A stretch of 64,000 bases of DNA from Verrucomicrobiota bacterium (GTDB lineage: Bacteria; Verrucomicrobiota; Verrucomicrobiia; Verrucomicrobiales; DEV007): contig JAHDID010000002.1 in assembly GCA_020630975.1 (NCBI GenBank), positions 186,001-250,000 of the forward strand, written 5' to 3'. Both the position numbers and the translations under genes were made by a program. This document shows, piece after piece, positions 10,313 through 64,000 of this stretch; the stretch's first letter is position 1, and each line of letters opens with the position of its first letter. The notes beneath the pieces are model-generated. The model was not told where the DNA came from. It made no database searches and saw only the letters and a list, made by a program, of their open reading frames with translations.

Positions 10313-11401
10313 ATGTCGATATTCTGCATAGGCCTAAATCATAAAACTGCCCCGGTGGAGATCCGGGAGCGGTTGGCTTTTGCCGAGTCGCAGCTGCCTG
10401 AGCAGCTCGAGCAGATCGGTGAGCTGCCCGCAGTGGCTGAGGTGGTCATCCTATCCACCTGCAATCGGGTGGAGATCTACGGCGCTGCGGTAGAGTCGCC
10501 TGCTGCAGCATTGAGCGAGGTGCAGGCTTACTTGGTCGATCACTTCGATATCGCGGATGAGGCGGTGGAGTTTTATCAGCAGGAGGGCGAGGCAGCGGCT
10601 CACCATTTGTTCGAGGTGGCCAGTGGGCTCGACTCGATGGTGCTAGGCGAGACCGAGATCTTTGGTCAGGTGAAAAAGGCCTATTCCACAGCCCACCAGA
10701 GCGGCGCGACAGGGCGTGCTACGAATAAGCTGTTTCAGCAGAGTTTCACCATCGGCAAGCTGGTCCGGTCGAATTCCGCGATCCAGCATGGCTCGACCTC
10801 TATCGGCTCGGTAGCGGTAGATCTGGCAGAAAAGATCTTTGGCGACCTAAAGGGCAGCAGCGTGATGATCGTCGGCGCAGGCGAGATGAGCCGCACCACC
10901 GCGCAGAGCATGGTGTCGCGCGGAGCTAGCAGCATCATCGTGTCGAACCGGAGCTACGACAAGGCTGTCGAGCTGGCAGAGGAACTAGACGGTGAGGCGC
11001 TGAGATTCGATGATTGGGAAAAGGCCCTGCGCAAAGTCGACATCCTCATCAGCTCCACCTCGGCCCCGCATCCGATCATCACCCGAGAGAATCTCGAGCC
11101 CCACATGCGTCGCCGTCGCGGCAGACCGCTTTTCCTGATCGATATCGCCGTACCGCGCGACATCGCCGACGACGTGCGCCAGCTAGACGATGCCTTTCCC
11201 TACAATATCGACCAACTCTCCGAGATCGCCGAAGCCGGTAAATCCAAGCGGCTCGAGCAGATCGCCGTGTGCCGTGAGTTGATCGCTGGGCACGTGGGCG
11301 AGAAGGGGATCGATGCGCTGGCGCAGTCGAGCTGTAGCCACCAGTCTCCACGGCAGAATTCATCAACATCGTCTCGTCAATTACCTAGCAAGTCATCATG
11401 A
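10313..11401 (+). CDS. hemA: Glutamyl-tRNA reductase
   Basis: MSIFCIGLNHKTAPVEIRERLAF, VVILSTCNRVEIYG, MVLGETEIFGQVKKAY. Start refined within ORF 10148-11401. Confidence 0.9.
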   Translation: MSIFCIGLNHKTAPVEIRERLAFAESQLPEQLEQIGELPAVAEVVILSTCNRVEIYGAAVESPAAALSEVQAYLVDHFDIADEAVEFYQQEGEAAAHHLFEVASGLDSMVLGETEIFGQVKKAYSTAHQSGATGRATNKLFQQSFTIGKLVRSNSAIQHGSTSIGSVAVDLAEKIFGDLKGSSVMIVGAGEMSRTTAQSMVSRGASSIIVSNRSYDKAVELAEELDGEALRFDDWEKALRKVDILISSTSAPHPIITRENLEPHMRRRRGRPLFLIDIAVPRDIADDVRQLDDAFPYNIDQLSEIAEAGKSKRLEQIAVCRELIAGHVGEKGIDALAQSSCSHQSPRQNSSTSSRQLPSKSS

Positions 11402-12432
11402 GCAGCACCACCACACCACTCATCCTAGGCACACGAGGTAGCGACCTCGCTATGATGCAGGCCCACATGACTCGCGACGCTCTGCTCGAGCGGGGTATCG
11501 CCTGCGAGATACAGGTCATCCAGACGATCGGCGACAAGCGGCCGGATCTGAAGCTCAGCGAGTTTAGCCAGCAGCTGGATGGCGTGCATGACAAAGGGGT
11601 TTTCACCAAAGAGCTCGAGGAGGCGCTACTGGCCGGTGATATCGACTTCGCCGTCCATAGTCTGAAAGATGTGCCCACCGAGCTGGGAGACTCATTCGAG
11701 ATCTGTGCCACGCTGCCGCGCGCGCCGATCTCCGACATCCTGCTGATGAGCGATCAGCAGCTAGCAGCCGATCTCGCGACGGAATTCAATAGGGTACAGT
11801 CTGGACTCAACAGGGTACAAAAAAAATTCAATAGGGTACAATGCCCCATCCTCGATGGGAAAACGGTAGCGACCAGCTCCGTGCGCCGAGCGGCACAGCT
11901 GCAGTGGGTTTTCCCCGGTGTCATCACCACCGATATCCGCGGCAATGTGCCGACCCGCATCCGCAAGCTCATCGAAAACGACGAGTGGGATGGCACCATC
12001 CTCGCCCGCGCAGGTCTACAGCGGCTCGGCATCTACGAGCCGGGCGAGCCAGTGATCGAGCTGGAGGGCCAGATCGTCTACGTGCAGGAGTTGCCAGCTC
12101 ATGTCTTTCATCCCGCCGCATCGCAGGGTGCAGTGGCCATGGAGGTGCTGACCAGTAATGACTGGGCCAAAGAAGCCCTCGCTCAGATCAACCACTCCGA
12201 GACCTTTGCTCAAGCCACAGCCGAGCGCTCCTTTCTGGCAGCGCTACAGGCCGGCTGTCAGACACCAGTCGGCGTGTGCACCGAGCTATCCGACGATGGC
12301 CAGCGGCTAGAGATCGATGCTGTCGTTTTCTCAGAAGAGGATCTGTCAGCCGCCCCGAGATTCGCCAAAGCGACGGTGGATATCGAGGAGGCCGAGACCG
12401 CTGGACAGCTATTGCTGGAGGCTTTGGATTAA
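11398..12432 (+). CDS. hemC: Hydroxymethylbilane synthase (porphobilinogen deaminase) carrying a repeat-encoded insertion
   Basis: LGTRGSDLAMMQA, HSLKDVPTEL, TSSVRRAAQL, DIRGNVPTRIRKL, LQAGCQTPVGV; overlaps the hemA stop. Confidence 0.92.
   Translation: MSSTTTPLILGTRGSDLAMMQAHMTRDALLERGIACEIQVIQTIGDKRPDLKLSEFSQQLDGVHDKGVFTKELEEALLAGDIDFAVHSLKDVPTELGDSFEICATLPRAPISDILLMSDQQLAADLATEFNRVQSGLNRVQKKFNRVQCPILDGKTVATSSVRRAAQLQWVFPGVITTDIRGNVPTRIRKLIENDEWDGTILARAGLQRLGIYEPGEPVIELEGQIVYVQELPAHVFHPAASQGAVAMEVLTSNDWAKEALAQINHSETFAQATAERSFLAALQAGCQTPVGVCTELSDDGQRLEIDAVVFSEEDLSAAPRFAKATVDIEEAETAGQLLLEALD
11785..11842 (+). repeat. Three copies of the 21-bp-period repeat (core TTCAATAGGGTACAAT) inside hemC
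   Basis: Units start at 11785, 11806 and 11827; encode FNRVQSG-LNRVQKK-FNRVQ. Confidence 0.9.
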
Positions 12433-12450
12433 GATTAAGAAGATAATACT

Positions 12451-12479
12451 ATAGGTCGCATAGGTCCTATGCGACCTAT
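12451..12479. repeat. Palindrome ATAGGTCGCATAGG-T-CCTATGCGACCTAT between convergent genes
   Basis: Perfect 14-bp arms with a 1-nt centre. Confidence 0.85.
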
Positions 12480-23932: not shown

Positions 23933-24252
23933 TCAAGCTACCAAGCGGCTCGTAAACAGGCACCTCAACAATCGAAAATAGCCTGTTCGCCAATCGCCAT
24001 TCCACTCTACCTCCGCCGCGCTACCCTAGCCGCCCCAAAGCCTGAGCGGATTGTCGATTGCTGATCGACTAGTGTTGATTGTTGAATGATCCGAGGCTCA
24101 AGCAACCAAGCAGCTCATAGACAGGCACCTCAACAATCGAAATTAGCCTGTTCGCCAATCGTCATTCCACTCTACCTTCGCCGCGCTACCCTAGCCGCCC
24201 CCAAAGCCTGAGCAGATTGTCGATTGCCTATCGACTAGTGTTGATTGTTGAA
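23933..24252. repeat. Two tandem copies of a 165-bp intergenic repeat
   Basis: Copy 1 from 23933 and copy 2 from 24098 share nearly all sequence (TCAAGC[T/A]ACCAAGC[G/A]GCTC... to ...GACTAGTGTTGATTGTTGAA). Confidence 0.9.
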
Positions 24253-24262
24253 ATCGTAAGAG

Positions 24263-24347
24263 CAGAGGGGGTGGGATTCGAACCCACGATACGTTGCCGT
24301 ATGCCGGTTTTCAAGACCGGTGCGTTCAACCACTCCGCCACCCCTCC
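24263..24347 (-). tRNA. tRNA-Ser (TGA anticodon)
   Basis: Minus strand GGAGGGGTGGCGGAGTGGTTGAACGCACCGGTCTTGAAAACCGGC...GTGGGTTCGAATCCCACCCCCTCTG; long variable arm, acceptor stem pairs. Confidence 0.95.
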
Positions 24348-25514: not shown

Positions 25515-26693
25515 ATGAGCATGATCTATCTGGATAATAATGCCACGACTCAGGTCGATCCGGCCGTGCGCGAGGCGATGCTGCCGTGGCTCGGTGAGCA
25601 GTATGGAAATCCCTCGGCGGGCTACCGTATCGGCAAGCAATCGCGCAAAGCATTAGAGACAGCGCGCGAGCAGGTGGCGGCATTGATCGATGCCGAGCCG
25701 GGGGAGATCATCTTCACCAGTGGTGGGACCGAGAGCAATACTCTGGCCATCCTATCCGCCACGCGGCTCTGGCCCGAGCGGCGTGGGCTGGTATCCAGCT
25801 CGGTCGAGCACAGTGCGATCCATGAGGGGCTCGGCTATTTCGCCGATTCAATAGGGTACAGCCCTGACTCAATAGGTTACAATCACCACGAGATCGCTGT
25901 GGATGCCGATGGAGTCCTCGATCTCGATGCCTGGCGCGCAGCTCTCGAGACTGGCGATGTGGCGATGGCCACGCTGATCTGGGCCAACAATGAGACAGGC
26001 GTGCTCAGCCCCGTGGTGGAGGCCGCCGAGGCCGCGCGCGATGCCAAGGTCTACTTTCATACCGATGCCGTGCAGGTCGTCGGCAAAGTCCCGGTATCGG
26101 TGGATGCTGCGCCGCTGCACTCGCTGGCGATGTCGGCGCACAAGTTTCACGGGCCCAAGGGCATCGGTGCGCTTTATGTCAATAAGCACGCGCGCTTTCA
26201 GCCATCGATCTTCGGTGGTGGGCAGGAGAGCGAGCGCCGCTCTGGCACGGAGAATGTAGCGGCCATCGTCGGTATGGGTGTGGCAGCGGATCTGGCTCGC
26301 CAGCGTCTCGATGAGATGCAGTCGGTAGAGGAGCTGCGCGATCGATTCGAGCGCGGTGTGGTAGCGGCGATCGAGGGTGTCGAGATCAATGGCACCACAG
26401 ACAGTCGTCTGCCCAATACGACCAATCTCTACTTCCCCGGAGTGGATGGCGAGGGGCTGCTCATCCTGCTAGACGAGGCTGGCGTCTGCTGCTCGCCGGG
26501 ATCGGCCTGCAGCACGGGAGCAATACAGCCCAGTCGCATCCTAAAGGCCATGGGCCAGAGCTCCAAGCGGGCGCGCAGCAGTGTGCGCTTTTCGCTATCC
26601 CATCTCAGCACCAAGGCCGAGATCGACGAGGCGATCGCTCAGATCGAAAAAGCGGTGGGCAAGCTGCGCATCGTACTACCGAGTCGGAGGTGA
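25515..26693 (+). CDS. Cysteine desulfurase (NifS/IscS type) carrying a repeat-encoded insertion
   Basis: MIYLDNNATTQVDPAV, FTSGGTESNTLAIL, SAHKFHGPKGIGALY, CCSPGSACSTG. Confidence 0.93.
   Translation: MSMIYLDNNATTQVDPAVREAMLPWLGEQYGNPSAGYRIGKQSRKALETAREQVAALIDAEPGEIIFTSGGTESNTLAILSATRLWPERRGLVSSSVEHSAIHEGLGYFADSIGYSPDSIGYNHHEIAVDADGVLDLDAWRAALETGDVAMATLIWANNETGVLSPVVEAAEAARDAKVYFHTDAVQVVGKVPVSVDAAPLHSLAMSAHKFHGPKGIGALYVNKHARFQPSIFGGGQESERRSGTENVAAIVGMGVAADLARQRLDEMQSVEELRDRFERGVVAAIEGVEINGTTDSRLPNTTNLYFPGVDGEGLLILLDEAGVCCSPGSACSTGAIQPSRILKAMGQSSKRARSSVRFSLSHLSTKAEIDEAIAQIEKAVGKLRIVLPSRR
25847..25882 (+). repeat. Two copies of the 21-bp-period repeat inside the cysteine desulfurase gene
   Basis: Units start at 25847 and 25868 (TTCAATAGGGTACAGCCCTGA / CTCAATAGGTTACAAT); encode DSIGYSPDSIGYN. 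Confidence 0.9.
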
Positions 26694-44585: not shown

Positions 44586-44600
44586 GTGGTGATCTGGACC

Positions 44601-44705
44601 AAGGAGGGGCGACGTCTCGTCGCCCGGCAGGCTGAGCCAACAGTTTTAGCACAATGCCAAAGATAACGGCCGAGCATGCTGGGCGACGAGACGTCGCCCC
44701 TCCTT
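44601..44705. repeat. 105-bp REP/BIME-like inverted-repeat element
   Basis: 25-bp perfect inverted repeats AAGGAGGGGCGACGTCTCGTCGCCC (44601-44625) and GGGCGACGAGACGTCGCCCCTCCTT (44681-44705); each arm is itself a hairpin. Confidence 0.85.
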
Positions 44706-44840
44706 GAGCTGGAGTCTCTGGTGGCCTCTGTTCCACCCCCACAAAAAAAATCCGCTGAAAAGAATGCCGGATGGCGATTCCTCAGCGGATTGCAAATGGT
44801 GCCTCCAATGCGAGTTGGAGGCAGCTGGAAAGAAAGTGGA

Positions 44841-47743: not shown

Positions 47744-48071
47744 CTGGCATCGCCCCTCGGTCTATGCCGTGACGATCGCGACGGCCTATATAAGCGGCGG
47801 TTTGGTTTTTTTCCACATATTCTTCCCATCCGGGCACCAAGTCTTCGCCGCAGCCTCCCCATGGATTGCAGCGGCAGACCCGCCATAGTCCCATGCAGGC
47901 CCCCTTGATCGGGCCGTGTACGAGCACTGCCTCGATGAAATACTGCGAGCAGGTGGGGTAAAACCGGCACCCAGCGCCCAGGGGCTTGGTGATGTAGTGG
48001 ATCGGCGTGGAGATACCGATCTGGTAGACCCGCGCGGCAAAGATGAGCAATACGGTGAGAAAGCGTCTCAT
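47721..48071 (-). CDS. yidD: Membrane protein insertion efficiency factor YidD
   Basis: YITKPLGAGCRFYPTCSQYFIEAVLVHGPIKGACMGLWRVCRCNPWGGCGEDLVP. Confidence 0.95.
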   Translation of the reverse strand: MRRFLTVLLIFAARVYQIGISTPIHYITKPLGAGCRFYPTCSQYFIEAVLVHGPIKGACMGLWRVCRCNPWGGCGEDLVPGWEEYVEKNQTAAYIGRRDRHGIDRGAMPGGHDHPH

Positions 48072-48448
48072 GCGGCAGCGGCCTCCTCGCTACTTTTGGT
48101 CTCGAGATGTAGGCCGGACTTGCGCAGCATCCATTTCCACTCTTTCTCCAGCTGGGTGGAGGTGGCATCGCCCGCATTGTGCCGGGCGATCAGCACCATC
48201 CAGTGGCCGGGACGCACTCGGTGCCCCTCGCGCTGTAGGATGGCACGCAGGCGGCGGCGCACTCGATTTCGCACCACAGCATTGCCGATCTTTTTGGTGG
48301 TGATCAGGCCGAGCTTGAAGGGCTCGTCCATGGCATCGTCGGCCAGATAGCCCATCACCAGAAAACGGCCGCTGATCGACTGGCCTTGGTTCCGGACTCG
48401 GGCGAATTCCGAGCGCGTACGGATACGTCTGGTGCGTGGTAGCTTCAT
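48068..48448 (-). CDS. rnpA: Ribonuclease P protein component
   Basis: LPRTRRIRTRSEFARVRNQG, GLITTKKIGNAVVRNRVRRRLRAI; overlaps yidD. Confidence 0.9.
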   Translation of the reverse strand: MKLPRTRRIRTRSEFARVRNQGQSISGRFLVMGYLADDAMDEPFKLGLITTKKIGNAVVRNRVRRRLRAILQREGHRVRPGHWMVLIARHNAGDATSTQLEKEWKWMLRKSGLHLETKSSEEAAAA

Positions 48449-48489
48449 GTACAGTCGATTCGACCAAGTCGAATCTACGATTTCGCGGG

Positions 48490-48526
48490 ATTGTACCCTA
48501 TTGAGTCAAAATTGTACCCTATTGAA
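48490..48526 (-). repeat. Two copies of the 21-bp-period repeat between rnpA and tal
   Basis: ATTGTACCCTATTGAG at 48490 and ATTGTACCCTATTGAA at 48511. Confidence 0.9.
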
Positions 48527-48536
48527 TTTGGCCTTT

Positions 48537-49496
48537 TCAGCCGAGTTTTTCGGCGATCAGCTGCTCGAGTTTTACGATATCGGCTGAGAAAGCGCGTATG
48601 CCCTGAGCCGTCTTCTCGGTGGCCATGGCATCTTCATTCAGCATGAAGCGGAAGGCTTTTTCATCGAGCTCGATTTTGTCGATGTCCATGGCTGCAGCGG
48701 CATCGGCATCCAGCTTTTTCTCGATCGGGGCATCGGCATTCTGCAGCTGCTCGAGGAGCTTGGGCGAGATGGTCAGCAGATCGCAGCCTGCTAGCTCGAT
48801 GATCTGGCCGATATTGCGGAAGGAGGCACCCATCACCTCGGTTTGGTGGCCGTGTTTTTTGTAGTAGTGGTAGATGCCCTGCACCGACTGCACGCCGGGG
48901 TCCTCGGCACCCTGGTAGTCGATGCCGGTGTCTTTCTTATACCAGTCGTAGATGCGGCCGACGAATGGCGAGATCAGTTTCACCTGGGCATCGGCACAGG
49001 CTACGGCTTGGGCCATGGAGAAAAGTAGGGTCAGATTGCAGTGGATGCCTTCTTTCTCGAGCGTCTCAGCGGCTTTGATGCCCTCCCAGGTGGAGGCGAT
49101 CTTGATGAGCACTCGCTGGCGATCGACGCCGTCGGCCTCGTACATAGCGATCAGTTGTTTGGCCTTGGCGATGGTGCCCTCGGTATCGAAGGACAGGCGC
49201 GCATCGACCTCGGTGGAGACGCGACCTGGCACGATGGCGAGGATCTCTTTGCCAAAGATGATCAGCAGTCGGTCGATGATCGCCTCGATAAGCGCAGCGC
49301 CGGTCAGGTCGGAGTCGGCTAGAGCGGTCACAGCCTGGTCGACGAGGTCGGCATACTCTGCCTTATTGGCAGCCTGCAGGATCAGCGAAGGATTGGTCGT
49401 CGCATCTTGCGGCAGGTACTCCTGCATCGACTGAAAGTCCCCTGTGTCGGCGACGACAGTGGTGAACTGCTTGAGTTGATCTAGCTGGTTGCTCAT
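48537..49496 (-). CDS. tal: Transaldolase
   Basis: [73 protein letters not shown]; start refined within ORF 48537-49505. Confidence 0.95.
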
Positions 49497-49595
49497 GGCG
49501 AGCAAGTTAGGCGAGATCTGGGGAAAGGAAAGCAGCCAGTCGATTGCGGTCTTTTTTGAAAGAAAGCTTCAATTGGCGACGAAGACTCGATAAGA

Positions 49596-62650: not shown

Positions 62651-63829
62651 TTAGCGATTTCGGTAGGCTAGTCGTCGCCAAAGACTTTCCAATGGCCCGC
62701 GATGAAAATGCTTCAGCCACAGGGTGGAGACGACGATCTGTAGCAGCCAGATGGCGGGGCAGATCATCAGCACCTGATGGAAGCTGAGCTGGTCGCGCCA
62801 TCCTAGGCCCGATCCATAGAAGAGTAAGCTAAACAAAATGGTCTGGCTGATGTAGTTGGTAAATGCCATCTTGCCGACCGATGTCAGCCAGCCTTTTAGG
62901 CGATTGAGTATTGAGCTTTGCGACCAGAGGATCATCGCCGTCGCGTAGGCGAGGGTGAGGCAAGGCGTCGCAGGGAATAACCAGACTGAGTTTTTCAGCA
63001 GCGATGTGTTTACCCAGCCGTCTCGATAGGTGAGCCAGACTCCGATCGCCGATAGCGCGATACCCACAGAGGCTGATATCAGCAGTGTGGCTCGGTATCG
63101 TGATGGTGCCCATTGGCCCTGAAAGAAACCGCTCTTAACTAGAGCCATACCGACTAGGAATAGGCTGCCGACTCCAGGCAGGTAGAAGAAAGGCAAAATG
63201 AAGAAGTGGCTGAGCAGTACCATAGTCGAGCGGAGCGGCATCTGATCGAGCCACGAGCCGGCAAAAGCGGCCTCCATATCCCAAAAGGTGCCTTTTTCGC
63301 TGTCCTGGTATGAGGCGAGTGCCTCGGCAGTCTGCTCGCCACCACCTAGTAGAAAAATGAGGCTGATCAAAGCCGCGAAAAATAGCAGAAAGCTCATCTG
63401 GATCGCACCTCCCACCCAGGCCAGAACTTTGGCAGACCAGCGTCGGCAGCAGTAGGCTAGGGCACCGACCAGAGCATAGATCACTAGGATGTCGCCATAC
63501 CATACTAGGTACGCGTGTAGCAGGCCAAATACCCAAAGCCAGCCCAGACGGGGTAGATAGGTCCTGGCCACCGGTAGGCCCTGGCTCTCGATCCGGCTGG
63601 TCTGCAGCCAGATACCTGCGCCGAAGAGTAGCGAGAAAAGCGAGACAAACTTGCTAAAACCAAACACCGACAAGGCTGACCAGAGAGGCCGATCTATGCC
63701 ATCGAGATTGGTGGGCATAAAGAACCAATCAGTGGAAGAGGCAAAGTCGAGAATATTGATCGGGACCAATCCACAGATGGCGACTCCGCGGATGAGGTCC
63801 ATAGAGGCGATTCGATTGGTGGACTCCAT
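62651..63829 (-). CDS. DUF418 domain-containing membrane protein
   Basis: NRIASMDLIRGVAICGLVPINILDFA; KMAFTNYISQTILFSLLFYGSGLG. Confidence 0.88.
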   Translation of the reverse strand: MESTNRIASMDLIRGVAICGLVPINILDFASSTDWFFMPTNLDGIDRPLWSALSVFGFSKFVSLFSLLFGAGIWLQTSRIESQGLPVARTYLPRLGWLWVFGLLHAYLVWYGDILVIYALVGALAYCCRRWSAKVLAWVGGAIQMSFLLFFAALISLIFLLGGGEQTAEALASYQDSEKGTFWDMEAAFAGSWLDQMPLRSTMVLLSHFFILPFFYLPGVGSLFLVGMALVKSGFFQGQWAPSRYRATLLISASVGIALSAIGVWLTYRDGWVNTSLLKNSVWLFPATPCLTLAYATAMILWSQSSILNRLKGWLTSVGKMAFTNYISQTILFSLLFYGSGLGWRDQLSFHQVLMICPAIWLLQIVVSTLWLKHFHRGPLESLWRRLAYRNR

Positions 63830-63900
63830 GCTCCGTGATGTTAGGCTCCGCGCGGGTTGATTGGCGATTACAAAACAATGGGCGTCGTGTAAAGCTAGCT

Positions 63901-63937
63901 ATTGTACCCTATTGAATGAAAATTGTACCCTATTTAA
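63901..63937 (-). repeat. Two copies of the 21-bp-period repeat near the right edge
   Basis: ATTGTACCCTATTGAA at 63901 and ATTGTACCCTATTTAA at 63922. Confidence 0.88.
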
Positions 63938-64000
63938 AATGAGGCTATCTCGATGGCTATAGGTGATATGGATTGGCTACTGCTATCGATACTATCGGCT

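Follow-up and report, generated by a model that had tools for sequence, protein, structure and literature searches.

A near-palindromic repeat in a verrucomicrobial cysteine desulfurase gene as part of a genus-specific, chromosome-wide set of predicted binding sites for a putative dimeric protein

The NifS/IscS-type cysteine desulfurase gene (25515..26693, + strand; 392 aa, assigned by HMM) of the 64,000-nucleotide stretch analysed here, referred to as the window, hosts two adjacent units of a short repeat that also occurs in hemC in another reading frame. This raises the question of whether the repeat is retained as DNA or as peptide and, if as DNA, to what kind of system it belongs. We refer to the window's genome, a 7.14-Mb draft, as G000 and to its sister genome as G025; other G-numbers denote congeners.

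The repeat in the desulfurase gene and elsewhere in the window

HMM analysis placed the desulfurase in Pfam Aminotran_5 (E 2.7e-65); its score against NifS TIGR03402 was 454 bits, under the cut-off of 530.75, and overall it fell below the equivalog cut-offs. Its best relatives carry the labels Verrucomicrobiales, Akkermansiaceae or Verrucomicrobia without exception, which places the window in a Verrucomicrobiales bacterium. The two repeat units, GATTCAATAGGGTACAGCC (25845..25863, +) and GACTCAATAGGTTACAATC (25866..25884, +), are 21 bp apart and encode DSIGYSP-DSIGYN, the first unit and the next two bases specifying DSIGYSP. A sequence-only reading of this DNA had placed the repeat at 25847-25882; the repeat is real, with two units at 21-bp spacing, but those limits trim both units and the correct ones are 25845-25884.

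A 16-base pattern allowing up to 3 mismatches gave 9 matches in the window against 0.74 expected, and three places besides the desulfurase gene contain the same repeat. The hemC gene (hydroxymethylbilane synthase; 11398..12432, +; TIGR00212, 227.8 bits, above the cut-off of 164) contains three units with a 21-bp period (11783..11843, +), which are read FNRVQ/LNRVQ/FNRVQ. Pattern matches also located two units (48489..48528, -) in the interval between a transaldolase gene (48537-49505, -) and an rnpA-like ORF (48068-48448, -), and two more (63900..63939, -) upstream of the adjoining DUF418 gene (62651-63829, -). The reading of the core as SIGY in the desulfurase and as FNRVQ in hemC supports its retention as DNA. 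This bears out the earlier claim that the element is kept as DNA and not as peptide, which also agrees with the codons of desulfurase orthologs, already fitted to a related DNA motif (see below), with the position of most sampled copies outside genes, and with the 7-residue (21-bp) difference between the window's desulfurase and its orthologs.

The window contains other repeated structures as well. A perfect 14-bp inverted repeat with a 1-nt loop, ATAGGTCGCATAGG, lies right after the hemC stop codon (12451-12479). At 23933-24252, two copies of a ~160-nt repeat, 93-94% alike, lie 165 bp apart and directly adjoin a tRNA-Ser gene (24262-24347, -). A long inverted repeat with 52-nt arms, 81% complementary, and a 3-nt loop is located at 44600-44706, where ORF calls overlap.

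Sites in orthologous genes and across the genus

The seven residues DSIGYSP of the window are missing in nearly all of the desulfurases of 29 congeners, and likewise in M. tuberculosis IscS 4isy; the alignment was written with 8 gap columns, one of which is compensated alongside, so that the difference is of 7 residues. The first unit is thus an extra 21-bp unit of G000, and the second overlies the native (D/E)STGY codons, at which GACCAAACAGGGTATGATG and similar sequences are found in congeners. Most congeners carry an inverted pair, spaced at 22 bp, on the native (D/E)STGY....NPVDS codons, e.g., ACAGGGTATGATGTGACACTTAACCCTGTTGACTC, and in G025 there is a direct pair of unchanged total length, with NPVDS replaced by NRVQS. 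Among 19 desulfurase orthologs, the site codons were Thr ACA in 11/13 cases (background 0.07), Gly GGG in 18/19 (0.26), Pro CCT in 12/19 (0.15) and Val GTT in 13/19 (0.16), the background being the rest of the same desulfurase genes; because the ortholog sequences are related, the P values of this codon test overstate the evidence and are indicative only. The presence of a related pair on native codons in the orthologs indicates that the desulfurase site predates the window's species. In the simplest reading of these sequences, the window's lineage would have gained one 21-bp unit (7 codons) upstream and lost the second native unit. A recent mobile insertion into the desulfurase gene was rejected on the basis of the orthologs' related sites on native codons and of a difference of just 21 bp, and the idea of an insert with a precise empty site was not borne out, as the orthologous place is usually occupied by the related inverted pair. 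Similarly, the hemC gene of many congeners contains an inverted pair, e.g., CAAGAGGGTC...GACCCTCTTG, and at this position G025 and the window's species both have three direct units.

The core TCAATAGGGTACA with at most one mismatch gave 729 matches across the 7.14 Mb of the genome, and the reversed control gave 7. These counts, together with those of the window, exclude chance; chance or low complexity was ruled out by shuffles and reversed-pattern controls, and a shuffled control gave zero pairs in 211 kb. The units of G000 occur mostly in pairs or triples. Overall, the clusters, found at hundreds of places, comprise 2-6 units of 13-19 bp with spacers of 2-8 bp; every large G000 contig that was sampled has them, as do most G012 contigs. 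Neighbouring units are 21 bp apart in 46/47 pairs of G000, and 22 or 44 bp apart in all 42 pairs of G025. The 21-bp period had been noted to keep any copy number in frame, which is true of the desulfurase gene; it is not the cause of the period, because G025 uses 22 bp, coding genes included.

The unit typical of most congeners, GAYTCAAC-AGG-GTTGARTC, is a near-palindrome of 19 bp that occurs in twos with a spacing of 22 bp, an arrangement also seen in the near-palindromic pairs of G012; we take this form as ancestral. The inverted pair AACAGGGT-N15-ACCCTGTT, with up to 2 mismatches, occurred 20-209 times in 29/34 genus genomes (reversed control, 0-4). G000 has a single such pair because its pairs are direct; pairs are mostly direct in G025 and inverted in most congeners. 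The spelling differs: TCAATAGGGTACA at 21 bp in G000, TCAACAGGGTACA at 22 or 44 bp in G025, and TCAACAGGGTTGA elsewhere. G027, G016, G003 and G018 have 0-6 inverted pairs. The function of the sites is dispensable in the genus, since G027 (7.0 Mb, 95% complete) has almost no sites. In order-level outgroups, the unit pattern gave no counts above control, and our literature search returned no described Verrucomicrobia repeat of this kind.

The units of G000, and even their spacers (often ATTTT), are much alike, and in G025 the spacers vary from cluster to cluster and some units are flipped in place. Exact unit-plus-spacer copies were found in contig C74 of G000 (GTCCCGATTCAATAGGGTACA, three times) and in contig C153 of G025 (GTCAGAGACTCAACAGGGTACA-type), with a further array of identical copies in contig C196 of the latter; such arrays indicate local tandem duplication. 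No Rfam family was found at the sites, unit orientation showed no clear link with GC skew (19/11 against 7/10), and the neighbours of the largest arrays had no gene in common that could encode a binder. An HU/IHF-like ORF and a response-regulator-like ORF, both identified by eye, are located close to one four-unit array of G025. Two other word families were over-represented: CGTTGGATTCG in the G000 contigs examined, with exact-repeat peaks at 18, 27 and 36 bp, which looks like a tandem repeat of its own, and words around AGGCTTACGTCGATCCGAACC in contig C13 of G012, with peaks at 21 and 42 bp and a sequence unrelated to the present motif.

Position relative to genes and spacing along the chromosome

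Genes were called with a custom program based on codon usage (72% coding in G000), and because this program misses genes the following counts are approximate: 31/47 clusters of the G000 sample are intergenic, often 5-25 bp from the neighbouring gene, and 16/47 lie inside or at the edge of a gene. The intergenic clusters are mostly between codirectional or convergent genes and only 4 between divergent ones, and the functions of the adjoining genes look unrelated. Four G000 genes with an internal site were traced, namely hemC, desulfurase, menD and a 538-aa gene, and in each case G025 carries a site at the matching position. The desulfurase and hemC positions are common to most of the genus, the mutL site is shared by G025, G000 and G012, and the dnaE site is present in G025 and G012 but not in G000; three other traced G025 genes with clear G000 orthologs have no site in G000. 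About nine intergenic sites of G000 were looked for in other genomes: G025 had none of them at the corresponding gene end, and G012 had one (recD2). This absence of most intergenic G000 sites from the same gene end in G025 means that many sites are young or that gene order has changed. Intergenic sites likely turn over, as judged from the limited number of junctions at which gene order was compared.

The spacing test in G000, which covered 0.84 Mb of sequence plus hit lists, considered clusters of at least two units. The 32 gaps had a mean of 19.9 kb, a minimum of 7.5 kb and a CV of 0.46, and not one of 10,000 random placements reached this evenness (random CV ~0.9 in a companion test). On separate G000 contigs, one gap was below 7 kb versus 5.6 expected (P 0.004), and a conditional test on pooled contigs supported even spacing with P 0.0001. 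In G025, the CV was 0.44 versus 0.71 (P 0.017) on contigs picked for carrying sites. Even spacing was not significant in G008 (P 0.33).

A putative dimeric binder, rival explanations and known systems

Near-palindromic units phased at 21-22 bp suggest a dimeric binder on adjacent sites, and the wide distribution of the sites, their tolerance in core genes, their indifference to gene function and their even spacing point to a chromosome-scale role over gene regulation. Based on these sequence features, we propose, with about even confidence, that the repeat is a cluster of predicted binding sites, one of a genus-specific set spread over the chromosome, for a putative dimeric protein acting chromosome-wide, the most likely role of which would be to organise the chromosome. 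Each 19-bp unit would be bound by one dimer of a putative sequence-specific protein, and a distance of 21-22 bp, i.e., two helical turns, would place neighbouring dimers next to each other on the same helix face. The clusters may act on the whole chromosome, through loop anchoring, bridging, SMC loading or blocking, or segregation, and not on neighbouring genes; they could gain and lose units via local tandem duplication and deletion, and the spelling of the motif may have changed together with the putative binding protein. The spacing in G008, the intergenic turnover, the near-absence of sites in G027 and the kinship of the sequences in the codon test speak against this proposal.

The main rival is that the repeats are DNA uptake or self-recognition sequences, which mark self DNA for transformation and spread by biased uptake and recombination, forming species dialects, because such sequences are likewise dispersed, intragenic and dialect-forming. 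The hundreds of copies in and between genes, the species-specific spelling, the inherited positions and the tolerance in core genes fit this explanation, and approximately even spacing would follow if the fragments taken up were of about 20 kb. We nevertheless consider it unlikely, since the known sequences are single 9-12-mers occurring about once per kb (PMC7811141, PMC3630211), against one cluster of near-palindromic 19-mers per ~20 kb here. A short MITE- or REP-like repeat, mobile or selfish and spread by copying, with target immunity setting the minimum distance, would account for the likeness of units and spacers in G000, for the many copies just between genes and for the avoidance of short gaps. 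That the in-gene positions are conserved across species with ~60-70% identical proteins, and that ortholog codons fit the motif already without any insertion, makes this origin doubtful and, in our judgement, decidedly unlikely. The differing spacers of the G025 clusters also argue against dispersal as one mobile element, as do the single units that change orientation in place, and by eye there were no terminal repeats or target duplications.

Two further explanations place the repeats in gene expression. Dimeric near-palindromes at helical spacing would resemble operators, which could belong to one large transcriptional regulon, but with a third of the G000 clusters inside or at the edge of genes, so few between divergent genes, and adjoining functions that look unrelated, we find this improbable; even spacing is not expected of operators either. 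The pairs might otherwise act in the transcript, as stem-loops of terminators or attenuators: they are inverted repeats in most congeners, their composite consensus folds strongly (z -5.95), and their inner arms pair at 46% within against 41% between pairs (P 0.03). The four sites of the window do not fold (z -1.25 to +1.23), pairs are direct in the window's species and mostly so in G025, complementarity is not raised in most pairs of other species, and the hemC, mutL and desulfurase sites are located mid-gene, all of which makes RNA hairpins very improbable.

Under the proposal of chromosome-wide binding sites, we further suggest, more tentatively, that the genus could possess a chromosome-addressing system not described before: pairs of near-palindromic 19-mers spread evenly about every 20 kb and retained even in essential genes to the detriment of the protein, the spelling, symmetry (inverted to direct) and period (22 to 21 bp) of which would have changed throughout the genome from one sister species to the other, along with the putative binder. 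The desulfurase, hemC and mutL sites clearly exemplify selection on DNA that overrides the protein sequence of core genes, and the dispersed motif family exemplifies rewriting across whole genomes between species. If the sites do organise the chromosome, the genus provides a natural experiment in which ~30 species have the same system with different spellings and densities, and at least one species of 7 Mb (G027) almost lacks it.

Several known repeat classes differ from the present sites. A CRISPR array was rejected, as it needs repeats of ~24-40 bp with unique spacers of similar length and the present units are of 13-19 bp with spacers of 2-8 bp. MITE-like insertion into an empty site was also rejected for the desulfurase and hemC loci, where the orthologous sites are occupied and only one 21-bp desulfurase unit differs. 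REP/BIME elements are short palindromes in inverted pairs with many intergenic copies; unlike these extragenic elements, the present sites also lie within hemC, desulfurase, menD and mutL at conserved positions, and their pairs are direct in two species. A GTAG head was not seen in the unit consensus. The Beggiatoaceae TAACTGA repeats, with 169 sets of direct repeats (PMC4679880), are similar in that short direct repeats occur in numerous scattered sets of 2-6, but they are heptamers mostly just upstream of start codons, whereas the present 19-bp units have a 21-22-bp period and no start-codon link.

The DUS/USS uptake sequences, which form species dialects in Neisseriaceae (PMC3630211), share with the present sites a strong over-representation, an occurrence in and between genes and the dialects themselves; they differ in being a single 9-12-bp motif about once per kb, whereas the present near-palindromes are helically spaced and recur about every 20 kb. 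The SegB sites of Sulfolobales, of which there are 46, 83.7% of them intragenic, are likewise a palindromic motif scattered over the chromosome, mostly in genes of unrelated function and with variants across genera (PMC12284271). Unlike the 13-bp SegB motif TCTAGASTCTAGA, present in a few tens of copies concentrated near segAB, the present sites have another motif, number in the hundreds, are paired and more often intergenic, and are evenly spread in G000. The matS sites of Enterobacteria, the 13-bp target of MatP, occur in 23 copies within 800 kb (PMC3330122), which corresponds to distances of tens of kb, and are also short dispersed sites, their binder MatP acting on chromosome structure. 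Unlike matS, which is limited to the Ter region, the present sites are found on contig after contig, with another sequence, of the 19-bp GAYTCAAC-AGG-GTTGARTC type, in clusters of 2-6 units at 21-22 bp. For the proposed chromosome-scale role, matS/MatP and the SegB sites are the known analogues.
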